From: Hymenobacter yonginensis
Lineage (GTDB): Bacteria > Bacteroidota > Bacteroidia > Cytophagales > Hymenobacteraceae
Length of the DNA: 64,000 nucleotides
Direction: 5' to 3'
Assembly: GCF_027625995.1 (NCBI RefSeq)
Contig: NZ_CP115396.1
Coordinates: 3,844,501-3,908,500 of the forward strand
The notes under the pieces were generated by a model. It did not search any database. It was not told where the DNA came from and worked only from the letters and a program-made list of their open reading frames with translations. Shown piece by piece: positions 30,169-36,491 of the stretch (positions are counted from its first letter, which is position 1; the number at the start of each line of letters is the position of its first letter). Both the position numbers and the translations under genes were made by a program.

Positions 30169-31239
30169 TTACGACACGCCTTCCTTCAGGCGCTCGGCGC
30201 TTTCGGCCAGGCGCAGTTGCTCCACGAAGTCGTCGATGTTGCCGTCCATCACGCTGGCCAGGTTGTACACCGTGAACCCGATGCGGTGGTCGGTTACGCG
30301 GCCCTGGGGGTAATTGTAGGTGCGGATTTTATCGGACCGGTCGCCGCCGCCAATCATGTTTTTGCGGGCAGCGCCTTCGGCTTCGTTTTTCTTGGCCAGC
30401 TCGATTTCATAGAGGCGCGAGCGAAGTACCTGCAGGGCCTTATCGAAGTTCTTGAGCTGCGACTTCTGGTCCTGGCACTGGGCCACCAGGCCGGTGGGCA
30501 AGTGGGTGAGGCGCACGGCCGAGTAGGTGGTGTTTACCGACTGCCCGCCGGGCCCGCTGGACATAAACAGGTCCTTGCGCACGTCGTTCATGTCAATCTG
30601 TACGTCCAGCTCCTCGGCTTCCGGCATCACCACAATGGAGGCCACCGAGGTGTGGATGCGGCCCTGGGTTTCGGTGGCCGGCACGCGCTGCACACGGTGC
30701 ACGCCGCTCTCAAACTTGAGCTTGCCGTACACGTCCTCGCCCTTCACGGCCAGGATAATTTCCTTGTAGCCGCCCGAAGTACCTTCGGTGGCATCGATGA
30801 GGTCCATCTTGAGGCCGTTCTTTTCGGCGTAGCGCATGTACATGCGTTGCAGGTCGCCGGCAAAGATGGCCGCTTCGTCGCCGCCGGCCCCGGCCCGGAT
30901 TTCCATGATGACGTCCTTGCTGTCGTTGGGGTCGCGCGGGAGCAGCAGGTCTTTGATGACGCCTTCGAGGCGCTCCTGCTCGGGGTAGAGCGTTTCCAGC
31001 TCGTCCTTCGCCATCTGGCGGAAGTCCTCGTCCTTTTCAGTCGAGATGACCTCCTTGGCGCCGTCGATGTTGGCCAGCACGTTCTGGTAGGCCTTGTACT
31101 CGGTCACGATCTTGCCCAGGTCCTTGTATTCTTTGTTCAAGGACTTAAAGCGTTTCATGTCGCTCATGGCGTCAGGCTGGGTTAGCAGCTCGCTCACGTC
31201 GTTGAAGCGCTGTTGGATGGCCTCCAGTTTATCTAGCAT
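30169..31239 (-). CDS. prfA: Peptide chain release factor 1
   Basis: 356 residues, with start ATG at 31239. It releases the peptide at UAA/UAG codons. The GGQ catalytic motif is [17 protein letters not shown]; the codon-recognition PxT tripeptide is in [10 protein letters not shown], as in RF1. The length fits the family. TACCTTTG at 31270-31277 (minus) is a likely -7 box. The stop is followed by repeat R2. Confidence 0.97.
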
Positions 31240-31277: not shown

Positions 31278-31434
31278 CTGAAAACAAACACGTGTAGGTT
31301 GGCGCCCGGTTCCGGATTGGCCGGGCCGGGGCCGGCGGCCGGCGGCAGTACCCGGCAGCGGCGCAAAAAAAAGCCGGAGCCCCTGCGTGCATCCTGAAAA
31401 GTTTTTCTACTTTGAGCCCGTTCTCCTGCCTGCT

Positions 31435-31527
31435 ATGCTTCCACTCATTGCGCTAAGCTTACTTCTGCACACCCCGGCTGCCGGCGCTCCGCTGACAACC
31501 ACCGGTACGGCTACCACAACCCGCTGA
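31435..31527 (+). CDS. thrL: Threonine operon leader peptide
   Basis: A 30-codon open frame (ATG 31435, TGA 31525-31527), too short to be listed by usual ORF callers. Residues 21-29 read TTTGTATTT: seven Thr codons out of nine, using ACA, ACC and ACG. It sits 178 nt before the aspartokinase-homoserine dehydrogenase gene and directly ahead of competing hairpins. Enterobacterial thrL peptides are likewise runs of Thr codons (with Ile) that sense charged tRNA by ribosome stalling. No Ile run is present, so threonine alone would be sensed. This is inferred from sequence and not tested. Confidence 0.8.
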
Positions 31528-31620
31528 CGCGGGCTGCCGAACCTCCTTTTCCCTTTCCCCAGAGTTTTCGCAGCCCGTCGCCGGCCGCTTCCCACCCCGG
31601 AAGCTCCGGCCCGACGGGCT
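31520..31620 (+). promoter_or_regulatory. Transcription attenuator of thrABC
   Basis: Three mutually exclusive pairings are visible. Segment 1:2 is CCCGC (31520-31524) with GCGGG (31529-31533), around the leader stop codon. Segment 2:3 is CGGGCTGC (31530-31537) with GCAGCCCG (31570-31577), a perfect 8-bp antiterminator. Segment 3:4 is AGCCCGTCG (31572-31580) with CGACGGGCT (31612-31620), extended by GGCC/GGCC and GCTTCC/GGAAGC. A ribosome finishing the leader would cover segment 2 and allow 3:4; one stalled on the earlier Thr codons would free 2 to pair with 3. The weak point is the short U tract (CTTCT) after 3:4. Confidence 0.75.
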
Positions 31621-31705
31621 TCTCCGTGTAGTGCCCTTCCGCTCCAGCCTCCCTCCTGCCCGCCCCGCGTTTCCTGTCTTCTATCTCTGTTTAATCTCTA
31701 CGCTC

Positions 31706-34150
31706 ATGCAGGTCCTCAAATTCGGTGGTACGTCGGTGGCTACGGCCGCCAATCTTCAGCGCGTGGCGCGGCTGGCCGAGGCCGCTGCCCGGCAGCAGCC
31801 CACTATCGTCGTGGTGTCGGCGCTGGGTGGCACTACGGATCTGCTGATTGAGGCCGGCCGCGCCGCCGCCGCCGGCCATCAGGACTACCGCGCCCACTTG
31901 CGCCAGCTGGAGCTGCGCCACCTGGAGGCGGTGCGCGGCCTGCTGCCGGTGCCCGAGCAAAGCGAAGTGCTGAGCTTCGTGAAAAGCTCCTGCAACGAAC
32001 TGGAAAACCTCTGCGACGGCGTCTTCGCGCTGGGCGAGCTGTCTGACCGCACCCTTGACCGGCTGATGAGCTACGGCGAACTGCTGGCCTCGGGGCTGCT
32101 GGCGGCGGCGCTGCGCAGCCACGGCACGCCGCACCTGTGGTACGACAGCCGCCAGCTGATCCGGACCAACTCGCAGCACGGCTTTGCGGCCGTGGACGTT
32201 GCCTTCACCAACCTGCAGATCCGGGAGTTTGTGGCCGAGCAGCCGGCGGCGCTCTATGTGGTGCCCGGCTTCATCGGCAGCGACGCGCACGGGGCCACCA
32301 CCACCCTGGGCCGCGGCGGCTCCGACTACACGGCGGCCCTGTTTGCGGGCGCGCTGGCCGCCGAGCGCCTGGAAATCTGGACCGACGTGAGCGGCATGAT
32401 GACGGCCGACCCGCGGCTGGTATCGGCGGCGCGGCCCATTCCGCGCATCTCCTACCAGGAGGCCATGGAACTGTCGCACTTCGGGGCCAAGGTGCTGTAT
32501 CCGCCTACCATTCAGCCGGTCATGAGCCAGGGCATTCCGCTCTGGATCAAAAACACCTTCGCGCCCGACGATGCCGGCACGCTGGTGGAAGTGCGCCCAC
32601 CCGCCAACCACGAGGTGGTGCGGGGCCTGAGCAGCATCAGCGGGCTGGCTTTGCTGAGCCTGGAGGGCAGCGGCATGGTGGGCATTCCGGGCTTTTCGCG
32701 GCGGCTGTTCGGGGTGCTGGCGCAGGAGCGGATCAACGTCATTCTTATCACCCAAAGCTCCTCGGAGCACTCCATCTGCGTGGCCGTGCGCGCCGCCGAC
32801 GCGCCCCACGCCCAGGTAGCCGTAGACGAGGAGTTCGGGCCCGAAATAGCGGCCGGCCGCGTGGAGCCGCTGCGCCTGGAAACCGACTTGGCCATTGTGG
32901 CGCTGGTGGGCGAGCAGATGCGCAACCACTCGGGCATCAGCGGACGCATGTTTGGGGCACTCGGCAACAACGGCGTCAACATCCGGGCCATTGCGCAGGG
33001 CTCGTCGGAGCGCAACATCTCCGTCGTGATTCGGGCCCACGACGTACGCAAGGCCATCAACGTGCTGCACGAGGACTTCTTTGAGGAGTCGGTGAAGCAA
33101 GTGAACGTGTTTGTGGCGGGCGTGGGCAACGTGGGCGGCAAGCTGCTGGAGCAGCTGGCCCGGCAGCAGCCCTGGCTGCGCGAGAAGCTGCGCCTGAACC
33201 TGCGCGTGGTGGGGCTGGCCAACAGCCGCCGCTTCGTGCTCGACGACAACGGCCTCGACCTGGCGCATTGGCCCGAGGCGCTGGAGCAGGGCCAGCCGCT
33301 ACGTTTGCCCGAGCTGGTGCGCGAGCTGCAGGCCCGCAACTTGCGCAACACCGTGTTCGTGGACGTGACGGCCAACGCCGACGTGGCCAACATCTACGGG
33401 CAGCTGCTGGAAAAAAGCATTGCCGTGGTGGCCTGCAACAAGGTAGCTGCATCGGCGGAGTACGCCAGCTACGCCCGGCTGAAGGCGCTGGCACGGGAGT
33501 TCAGCGCGGGGTTCCTGTTTGAAACCAACGTGGGCGCGGGCCTGCCCGTCATCGGGACGCTGAACGACCTGCTGCGCAGCGGCGACGAGGTGCGGCGGAT
33601 GGAAGCCGTGCTGTCGGGCACGCTCAACTTCGTGTTCAACCACTATGACGGCAGCCGGCCCTTTGCCGAGGTGGTCCGCCAGGCCCAAACCGAAGGCTAC
33701 ACCGAGCCCGACCCGCGCCTCGACCTCAACGGCTCCGACGTGGCCCGCAAAATCCTGATTCTGGCCCGCGAGGCCGGCCGGGAAATGGAAATGGCCGACA
33801 TCCGCAACGAGTCGTTTCTGCCCGAATCCTGCCTGCAGGGCGACGTGGAGGCGTTTTATGAGCAGCTGGCCGTGCACGAACCACACTTCCGGGCGCTGTA
33901 TGACGCCGCGGCGGCCGAGGGCAAGCGCCTCAAGTTTGTGGCCCGCTACGCCGACGGCCAAGCCGGTGTGGGCCTGCAGGCCGTGGCCCCCGGCCACGAC
34001 TTCTACGACCTGCAGGGCAAGGACAACGCTGTGCTGTTCTTCACCAACCGCTACCCCCGTCAACCGCTGGTAGTGAAGGGGGCAGGAGCTGGCGCCGACG
34101 TAACGGCCTCCGGCGTGTTTGCCGACATCGTGCGCGCCGCCCGGGTGTAG
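31706..34150 (+). CDS. thrA: Bifunctional aspartokinase / homoserine dehydrogenase I
   Basis: 814 residues, with start ATG at 31706. The aspartokinase domain begins with [10 protein letters not shown] and runs to about 300. Two ACT regulatory domains follow (about 310-460, with [15 protein letters not shown] and [21 protein letters not shown]). Homoserine dehydrogenase follows from about 465, with [16 protein letters not shown] (NAD(P) site) and later [18 protein letters not shown]. It catalyses the first and third steps from aspartate toward threonine. The ACT pair normally gives threonine feedback inhibition. It is the first gene of thrABC, under the leader at 31435. Confidence 0.97.
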
Positions 34151-34259: not shown

Positions 34260-35183
34260 ATGACCGATTCCGTTACCGTTTACTCGCCGGCTACCGTGGC
34301 CAATGTGGTGTGCGGGTTTGATGTGCTGGGCTTCGCGCTGGCCGCACCCTTCGACACCATGCACCTGCGCCGCACGCCGGAGCCGGGCGTAGTCATTCTC
34401 AACGAAGACGACTACGACCTGCCCACAGAGCCTGCCCACAACGTGGCCGGGGCGGCGCTGCTGGCGCTGCTCCGGGCCACCGGCGAGCCGCTGGGCTTCG
34501 AGATGCGCATCAAAAAAGGCATCAAGCCGGGCAGCGGCATCGGGAGCAGCGCGGCCAGCGCGGCGGGGGCGGTGGTGGCTGCTAACCGCCTGCTCAACGA
34601 CCGGTTCAGCCCGGAAGAGCTGGTGCAGTTTGCCATGTTCGGGGAGGAAGTGGCCAGCGGCGCCCGCCACGCCGACAACATCGCGCCGGCCATCTACGGC
34701 GGCTTCACCCTCATCCGCTCCGCCGACCCGCTCGACATCGTACCGCTGCAGGCGCCGCCCCTGCACGTGACGGTGGTGCACCCGCAGATTGAGGTGCGCA
34801 CCGCCGACGCCCGCCGGATTCTGCGCCAGCAGGTGCCGCTGAAAGACGCCATCCGGCAGTGGGGCAACGTAGCCGGGCTGGTGGCCGGCCTGCTGCAATC
34901 CGACTACGACCTGATTGGCCGCTCTCTGGAAGACGTCATCGTGGAGCCCGTGCGCAGCATTCTGATTCCGGGCTTTGCGGCCGTGAAGGCGGCCAGCCTG
35001 GCGGCCGGGGCGCTGGGCGGCGGCATTTCCGGCTCCGGCCCCTCGGTGTTCATGCTCAGCCGCGACGAAGCCACGGCCCAGGCCGTAGCCCAGGCCATGC
35101 GCGGCGTGTACCAGCCGCTGGGGGTGGATTTTCACATTCACGTCACGAGCCTCAGCCCGGTGGGCGTGCGGTTTGCCGTTTGA
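34260..35183 (+). CDS. thrB: Homoserine kinase
   Basis: A 307-residue GHMP kinase. The ATP loop is KPGSGIGSSAASAAGAVVAANRLL (about 92-115); the C-terminal GHMP motif has GALGGGISGSGPSVFML. It phosphorylates homoserine before threonine synthase. It is 15 nt upstream of thrC and downstream of thrA, so the full pathway from homoserine is in one operon. Confidence 0.96.
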   Translation: MTDSVTVYSPATVANVVCGFDVLGFALAAPFDTMHLRRTPEPGVVILNEDDYDLPTEPAHNVAGAALLALLRATGEPLGFEMRIKKGIKPGSGIGSSAASAAGAVVAANRLLNDRFSPEELVQFAMFGEEVASGARHADNIAPAIYGGFTLIRSADPLDIVPLQAPPLHVTVVHPQIEVRTADARRILRQQVPLKDAIRQWGNVAGLVAGLLQSDYDLIGRSLEDVIVEPVRSILIPGFAAVKAASLAAGALGGGISGSGPSVFMLSRDEATAQAVAQAMRGVYQPLGVDFHIHVTSLSPVGVRFAV

Positions 35184-35198
35184 TATCCGTTGTTTACT

Positions 35199-36491
35199 AT
35201 GCGCTACTACAGCCTCAATCACCAGTCGCCTACCGTTGATTTCCGGGAAGCCACCATTGCCGGGCAGGCGCCCGACGGCGGCCTGTACTTCCCGGAGCAG
35301 ATTCCGCGCTTCTCCGCCGAATTCCTGACCCGGCTGCCAGCCCTGCCCCGCGCCGAAGTCGCCTACGAAGTCATCCGGCCCTACGTGGGCGCCTGCATCC
35401 CGGAAGACGAGCTGCGCCGAATCTGTGCCGAAACCGTGGACTTTGAGTTTCCGCTAGTGCCGGTTTCCGACCGAATTTCGGCGCTGGAGCTGTTTCACGG
35501 GCCCACGCTGGCCTTCAAGGATGTGGGCGCGCGGTTTATGAGCCGCTGCTTGGGCTACTTTTCGCGGCGGCAGGCGGCGCCCATCACGGTACTGGTGGCC
35601 ACCTCCGGCGACACCGGCGGGGCCGTGGCCGACGGGTTTCTGGGCGTGCCGGGCGTGGAAGTGGTGATTCTGTATCCGTCGGGCAAAGTGAGCCCGCTGC
35701 AGGAAAAGCAGCTCACCACGCTCGGCCAGAACATCACGGCCCTGGAGGTGCGCGGCAACTTCGACGACTGCCAGCAGCTGGTGAAGCAGGCGTTTCTGGA
35801 TGCCACGGTGACGCAGCGCCGGCAGTTGACCTCCGCTAATTCCATCAACGTGGCGCGCTGGCTGCCGCAGCAGTTCTACTACCTGTTTGCGCTGCAGCAG
35901 TGGACGCACGCCGCGCCGCCGGTGGTAGCCGTGCCCAGCGGTAACTTCGGCAACCTGTGCGCCGGGCTGCTGGCCCACGCCTCGGGGCTGCCCATCGGCC
36001 ACTTCATAGCCGCCTGCAATGCCAACGACGCCGTGGCCGACTACCTGCGCACTGGCGCATTTGCGGCCCGGCCGGCCGTGGCCACGCTTTCCAACGCCAT
36101 GGACGTAGGCAACCCCAGCAACTTCGGGCGCATTCTGGAGCTGTTCGGGCAGCAGCATGCGGCCCTGAGCGCGCTGGTCAGCGGCGCCACCATCACCGAT
36201 GCCGACACTCAGGCGACCATCCGGCGCACCTACCAGCACACCAGCTACCTGCCCGACCCGCACGGCGCCGTGGCCCTACTGGCGCTGGAAAACCATCTGG
36301 CCGAACACCCAGACGCCCGCGGCTTCTTCCTGGAAACGGCCCACCCCATCAAGTTCCCGGAAGTGGTGGAGCCAGTGATTGGGGCGGCCGTGCCGGTGCC
36401 GGATTCGGTGCAGGGCTTGCTGTCGAAGCCCAAGCAAAGCATTCTGCTGGAGCCGCGCTATGAGGCGCTGCAGGAGTTTTTGCTGCGCTGA
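35199..36491 (+). CDS. thrC: Threonine synthase
   Basis: 430 residues from ATG 35199 (a TTG at 35190 is less likely). The PLP lysine is Lys107 in GPTLAFKDVGARF; other sites are VATSGDTGGAVADGF and VPSGNFGNLCAG. The N-terminus (MRYYSLNHQSPTVDFREA) is that of the class that uses O-phosphohomoserine. It completes threonine synthesis. Confidence 0.97.
   Translation: MRYYSLNHQSPTVDFREATIAGQAPDGGLYFPEQIPRFSAEFLTRLPALPRAEVAYEVIRPYVGACIPEDELRRICAETVDFEFPLVPVSDRISALELFHGPTLAFKDVGARFMSRCLGYFSRRQAAPITVLVATSGDTGGAVADGFLGVPGVEVVILYPSGKVSPLQEKQLTTLGQNITALEVRGNFDDCQQLVKQAFLDATVTQRRQLTSANSINVARWLPQQFYYLFALQQWTHAAPPVVAVPSGNFGNLCAGLLAHASGLPIGHFIAACNANDAVADYLRTGAFAARPAVATLSNAMDVGNPSNFGRILELFGQQHAALSALVSGATITDADTQATIRRTYQHTSYLPDPHGAVALLALENHLAEHPDARGFFLETAHPIKFPEVVEPVIGAAVPVPDSVQGLLSKPKQSILLEPRYEALQEFLLR

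Follow-up and report, generated by a model that had tools for sequence, protein, structure and literature searches.

A predicted ribosome-mediated threonine attenuator with its own sequence upstream of thrABC in Hymenobacter

Results

The thr locus and its leader peptide

The window analysed here is a stretch of 64,000 nucleotides from the genome of Hymenobacter yonginensis, and it carries the thrABC genes on the forward strand. The first gene, thrA (31706..34150), encodes a bifunctional aspartate kinase/homoserine dehydrogenase (NF006959, 1011 bits with a cut-off of 726); it is followed on the same strand by thrB for homoserine kinase (34260..35183; NF002288, 383 bits; TIGR00191, 208 bits) and thrC for threonine synthase (35199..36491; TIGR00260, 269 bits, cut-off 167). 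On the reverse strand, prfA for release factor 1 (30172-31239) diverges from the thr leader, and the prfA‒thrA gap of about 466 nt contains both the leader and the RNA helices described below. By eye, the apparent start of prfA is closer to thrA in some leaderless upstream regions of the genus, e.g. L043.

The leader peptide ORF (31435..31527, forward strand) has 30 codons and the stop codon TGA, which lies 178 nt before the ATG of thrA at 31706. Its regulatory codons 21-29 (31495..31521, forward strand) contain seven Thr codons, at positions 21, 22, 23, 25, 27, 28 and 29, and no Ile codon, so that the operon for threonine synthesis is preceded by a small ORF in which codons for its product are clustered. 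The 30 codons, the seven Thr within codons 21-29 and the distance of 178 nt had been given in the initial annotation and were reproduced exactly. Among the 801 ORFs of 8-80 residues on both strands of the window, the leader is the only one with seven Thr in nine residues, and 30 simulated windows (second-order Markov) contain no such ORF. Five further ORFs of the window have six Thr in nine residues, where the simulation expects 0.07 with six or more; because of this excess the Markov null is lenient, and the case for the leader is therefore carried by conservation and not by the rarity of the ORF.

Conservation was assessed in 46 rows, i.e. 45 thrA upstream regions of the genus plus the window, from which the model R1 (alignment A2) was built. 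An intact leader ORF of 27-32 codons starting with ATG is found in 45 of the 46. Thr is conserved in this frame only: the final ten leader codons of the 46 rows encode 236 Thr and 45 Ile among 460 residues, and the other two frames of the same stretch give just 6 and 3 Thr. Pairwise differences in the last eight leader codons amount to 1609, 2348 and 3471 at the first, second and third codon position, the third varying most. In the remaining row, L010:1342-1484 from genome G063, the attenuator is intact but the leader lacks an ATG in phase with it, through either a mutation or an assembly error. It is conceivable that the locus holds a small conserved protein, or an ordinary terminator with no relation to threonine, and that the Thr run stems from base composition. 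The leader does vary in its N-terminal half, and the five other ORFs with six Thr in nine would fit such an origin; against it stand the retention of Thr/Ile codons near the stop in a single frame, the strong element matches, which lie exclusively before thrA, and the tendency of the Ile codons to accompany the ilv pathway. We regard this explanation as highly improbable.

A promoter −7-like box of the putative leader transcript is located at 31407..31414 on the forward strand (CTACTTTG). The pattern TAnYTTR, which was picked after viewing the rows, occurs 18-24 nt 5′ of the leader ATG in 42 of the 46 rows, where a local control expects 0.05; among the exceptions, three more rows read CTAGCTTTG and L010 offers no in-frame ATG to measure from. 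The Bacteroidota promoter −7 consensus is TAnnTTTG, from which the leader box differs in that its spacing is off by one. From this box we infer a transcript start just upstream of 31435. The initial annotation had considered a start downstream of 31527; what the rows show instead is a conserved box resembling a promoter on the 5′ side of the leader.

Competing RNA helices

Around and beyond the leader stop, three helices on the forward strand compete for the same bases. Hairpin 1:2 (31520..31533) pairs 31520-31524 with 31529-31533, holds the stop codon in its loop and may serve as a pause or protector hairpin. The putative antiterminator 2:3 (31530..31577) pairs 31530-31537 with 31570-31577, and the putative terminator hairpin 3:4 (31572..31620) pairs 31572-31580 with 31612-31620 and contains nested pairs. 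Recounting confirms the pairings proposed in the initial annotation, with 5, 8 and 9 pairs, all Watson-Crick. Terminator and antiterminator are mutually exclusive, as is the case in amino-acid attenuators. With its nested pairs the 3:4 hairpin of the window reaches −34.4 kcal/mol (z −6.0 relative to shuffles), and the antiterminator alone −20.4 kcal/mol. The stability of 3:4 exceeds that of shuffles with z < −2 in 45 of the 46 rows, and strand 2 (GGGCYGC) starts 1-3 nt past the stop codon in every row.

RNAalifold on alignment A1 recovers helix 2:3 alone, because the arms of 3:4 are offset by two columns from one clade to another; arm-swap scoring, in which each arm is folded with its own and with foreign partners, was therefore used instead. 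For 3:4 the own partner beats the mean of the foreign arms in 46/46 rows (averages −30.1 versus −23.4 kcal/mol) and for 2:3 in 45/46 (−20.0 versus −17.7 kcal/mol), scores that are inflated by the relatedness of the rows. In terms of alignment cells, helix 1:2 is 92.3% paired, with a C-G to G-C swap in 7 rows; helix 2:3 is 90.9% paired, one mid-helix pair failing to form in 18 of the 44 distinct rows; and helix 3:4 is 74.6% paired, a count lowered by the misaligned arms. The inner stem of 3:4 differs in sequence from clade to clade, and its pairing is intact within each in the rows inspected.

In the covariation check suggested in the initial annotation, two-sided changes exceed shuffles for one helix and not for the others. 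In alignment A2, changes on both sides of a pair affect four pairs of helix 3:4, a number matched by only 7 of 500 shuffles; no excess is seen for helix 2:3 (one pair; 256/500 shuffles as high) or helix 1:2 (one pair; 458/500). A covariation score lies above all 500 shuffles for each of the three helices, although this measure is inflated by relatedness. The helix cores appear nearly invariant, and column covariation by itself is modest.

Stepwise folding separates the two states. If the transcript can pair from 31526 onwards, the antiterminator gives the best fold at lengths from 31580 to 31620; if it can pair only from 31538 onwards, the terminator has formed by 31620. Once the transcript extends to 31630, its full length here, the best fold is the terminator form even when strand 2 is free, and the switch must therefore be kinetic, i.e. 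a matter of timing.

A predicted switch and its U tract

We propose that the element is very probably a ribosome-mediated transcription attenuator of thrABC, the regulation being predicted from the sequence. When charged tRNA-Thr is plentiful, the ribosome would reach the stop codon at 31525 and cover strand 2 (31530-31537), strands 3 and 4 would form the terminator, and most polymerases would halt before thrA. Under a shortage of charged tRNA-Thr, the ribosome would stall in codons 21-29 with strand 1 covered and strand 2 free, and strand 2 could pair with strand 3 before strand 4 exists, so that thrABC would be transcribed. A ribosome covers some 15 nt downstream of its P site; when positioned at the stop codon it would thus extend to about 31537, where strand 2 ends, and when stalled at codons 21-27 it would leave strand 2 free. 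Ile codons in the leaders of most relatives that carry the element would add control by isoleucine, and the run of the window's lineage has none. The enterobacterial type of attenuation that the initial annotation had read from the geometry is supported by the conserved Thr codons, the helices and the stepwise folding.

The main doubt raised there was the weak U tract (CTTCTCCGT), which occupies the 9 nt at 31619..31627 on the forward strand and directly follows GGG. The weakness is real: with 4 U in 9 the window is the lowest of the 45 rows measured (L044 left out), the median being 6, and a simple terminator scan of the window did not list the 3:4 hairpin. It is a trait peculiar to the window's lineage, since relatives have more, namely 5 U in G001, 6 in G013 and G085, and 5-8 in the remaining measured rows. 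The same leader and helices might instead act on translation, with 3:4 hindering ribosome loading at thrA, or on Rho access, with translation of the leader shielding the RNA. The weak tract of the window would suit such a scheme, as would the position of the hairpin end near thrA in most relatives (U tract to ATG 11-110 nt, median 23). In the window itself, however, 85 nt separate the hairpin end from thrA, and the start of the gene lies outside the hairpin; moreover, the 9-nt tract contains 6-8 U in 39 of the 45 measured rows, a mark of intrinsic termination, and by eye textbook terminators follow the leaders of other genera. Control of translation or of Rho access is thus an unlikely, though not negligible, alternative to transcription attenuation.

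Distribution in Hymenobacter

Fused ThrA is encoded in 102 of 120 Hymenobacter genomes. The upstream DNA was read in 90 of these, and later also in G062 and G015; the remaining ten were covered by the model search alone, under strict filters. The comparison of upstream regions that the initial annotation had proposed finds the Thr frame and stems in 45/90 and no such element in the other 45, i.e. the element is common in the genus and not universal. Of the 45 carriers, 44 have a Thr/Ile-rich frame ending in TTR or similar, with its stop 108-206 nt 5′ of thrA, and the 45th is L010, with the same sequence and its ATG out of frame. Since half of the regions lack the element, control of thr in the genus apparently does not depend on it.

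A search with R1 matches 47 of the 120 genomes with at least 63 bits, every match lying directly 5′ of thrA; 45 of these are matched by construction, while G062 and G015, where thrA is in two pieces, are new. R1 has no match in the ten further genomes with fused ThrA, in at least two of which (G091, G095) the contig ends less than 100 nt from thrA, so that a leader could have been missed. There are also 17 weaker matches away from thrA, and the ten that were opened look like genes or ordinary terminators, none resembling a Thr leader.

The genome closest to the window is G001. In a tree of 66 ThrA proteins (45 with leader including the window, 17 leaderless and 4 outgroup sequences; G016 left out), the window groups with G001, G013 and G085, and the presence of the leader needs two changes. 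Ancestral inheritance of the element with losses would be the simplest story for this tree with its 17 leaderless genomes.

Isoleucine codons and the ilv pathway

Most carriers of the element have Ile codons in the leader, and these tend to go with the ilv pathway. Among 45 of the 47 element genomes (G062 and G015 left out), Ile occurs in the last 12 leader codons of 35/38 genomes with ilvD, whereas it occurs in only 1/7 without (Fisher p 7e-5, kinship ignored). The exceptions are G071, G082 and G037, which have ilvD and no Ile, and G110, with one Ile and no ilvD. Five independent contrasts show Ile going with ilvD in 3-4 cases and against it in none (sign test p 0.125); when the pairs are formed from Ile instead, 4 contrasts agree and an average of 0.3 run counter. 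The association is suggestive of leader Ile codons that follow the presence of the pathway.

The seven genomes with leader and without ilvD (G001, G013, G085, G024, G110, G022 and G099) stand at five separate places of the ThrA tree. No ilvC match over the cut-off was found in these seven; in five control genomes ilvC was found in four and fragmented in one. Repeated loss of isoleucine/valine synthesis in these Hymenobacter genomes is likely.

Thr and his leaders elsewhere in Bacteroidota

Outside the genus, Thr leaders were sought by eye and Thr count. They were found at 10/20 loci of the family (0/8 in genus g4), at 2/20 loci of the order and at 11/18 loci of the phylum, where 20 loci had been fetched and L172 and L173 were dropped because the start was not located. 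Named Chitinophagaceae loci also have Thr leaders. The ThrA identity to the window is 61-65% for Chitinophagaceae versus 44-50% for other genera of the window's own family, and this closer similarity suggests a possible transfer of the thr operon.

The Thr leaders of Chitinophagaceae and other Bacteroidota resemble that of the window in their Thr/Ile run, which closes with Arg, Leu or Pro ahead of the stop, in a hairpin whose loop holds the stop codon, and in the same fused thrA. They differ in that no clear 3:4 terminator is visible by eye and an ATAT box is present instead. For a count of this box, 44 loci were picked for a stop-codon hairpin (e.g. CAACCC-stop-GGGTTG), comprising 37 of 63 loci (L191-L253, 12 of which are from Hymenobacter) and 7 of 10 phylum loci (L154-L163). 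ATAT follows the stop in 42/44 of these selected loci, at 14-17 nt in 38/44, with GGG soon after in 39; the background further downstream is 86 in 1222 windows of comparison. The pattern CATATYAYCN{1,6}GGGC, searched in three genomes, matched no thr locus and was as frequent as in the control, being too strict.

A similar arrangement was observed at ten hisG loci of Hymenobacter (L289-L298). A His-rich ORF (such as one ending in AHHHLHGHHSSF before the stop) was flagged in 8/10, and in seven the leader ends about 200-219 nt before the hisG match. The stop codon lies in a hairpin of at least 7 pairs in 10/10, further hairpins are predicted, and ATATTG follows 14-15 nt past the stop in 9/10 and 18 nt in one. 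An Rfam scan of eight of these loci gave no relevant match. For Flavobacteriaceae, PMC9723704 describes a structured element before hisG that has no Rfam family.

Discussion

The E. coli thr operon leader encodes a short peptide with a Thr/Ile run, followed by competing hairpins and a terminator before thrABC, with a fused ThrA. The window element is like this thrL attenuator (RF00506) in having a leader with a Thr run, competing hairpins and a putative terminator directly before thrABC, and unlike it in that its run contains no Ile. The resemblance is one of apparent working and not of family membership, since the 55-bit threshold of RF00506 is not reached: an Rfam scan of the window gave no match at the gathering score and no Thr_leader match at E up to 10, and RF00506 did not match L004, L012 and L018 of Hymenobacter at E up to 1. 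L133 and L122, two loci from a different genus of the family, score 31-32 bits with RF00506; L133 matches on both strands, and therefore the hairpin alone drives the score. As a search model for Bacteroidota, RF00506 was rejected as unspecific, with matches in 139/148 genomes at E up to 1 and in 9/14 controls; its only match over the cut-off in the 148 genomes (G034:C7) lies on a contig other than that of thrA. One sub-threshold match of 36.5 bits, about 39 nt before thrA in G298, looks by eye like a real Thr/Ile leader with a terminator.

The initial annotation knew of no such attenuator in this group. Vitreschak et al. are said to have described in 2004, in FEMS Microbiol Lett, candidate amino-acid attenuators in proteobacteria and some Bacteroidetes/Chlorobi. 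Within the phylum, structured 5′ regions before amino-acid operons of Flavobacterium psychrophilum have been read as leader-peptide attenuation, the hisG and pheA elements being among those kept in other genera, according to PMC9723704, and the window element, from the same phylum, is read in the same way. The main text of that paper contains no mention of thrA or threonine. In Bacteroides thetaiotaomicron, sORFs reminiscent of leader peptides are reported in PMC7366714. No thr attenuator of Hymenobacter or of other Bacteroidota is described among the matches listed in open-licence literature. As far as these listings go, the initial view holds for printed examples of the thr case; it does not hold for leader-peptide attenuation as such, and Thr leaders are present in several families of the phylum. 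The element is a well-supported predicted attenuator of a known kind whose sequence is its own, leader-peptide attenuation itself having already been proposed for the phylum (PMC9723704).

A joint reading of all these leaders is offered tentatively, as an idea that we doubt somewhat more than we believe. Bacteroidota may possess a separate lineage of leader-peptide attenuators that shares no sequence relationship with those of enterobacteria. One widespread form, found outside the window, would combine the stop-codon hairpin with AUAU at an almost constant distance of about 15 nt after the stop, as in the thr leaders of Chitinophagaceae and the his leaders of Hymenobacter, with no clear intrinsic terminator. 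The window would represent a classical-switch form, retuned from Thr plus Ile to Thr after the loss of ilv.

What the locus offers is a predicted textbook three-strand thr attenuator in Bacteroidota with a sequence of its own, together with 47 natural variants in addition to the window. The Ile codons, which tend to be missing from the leaders of genomes that have lost ilvD and ilvC, may serve as a natural experiment on the amino acids that the leader detects. The other architecture, common to thr and his leaders, points to a regulatory RNA that has yet to be named.
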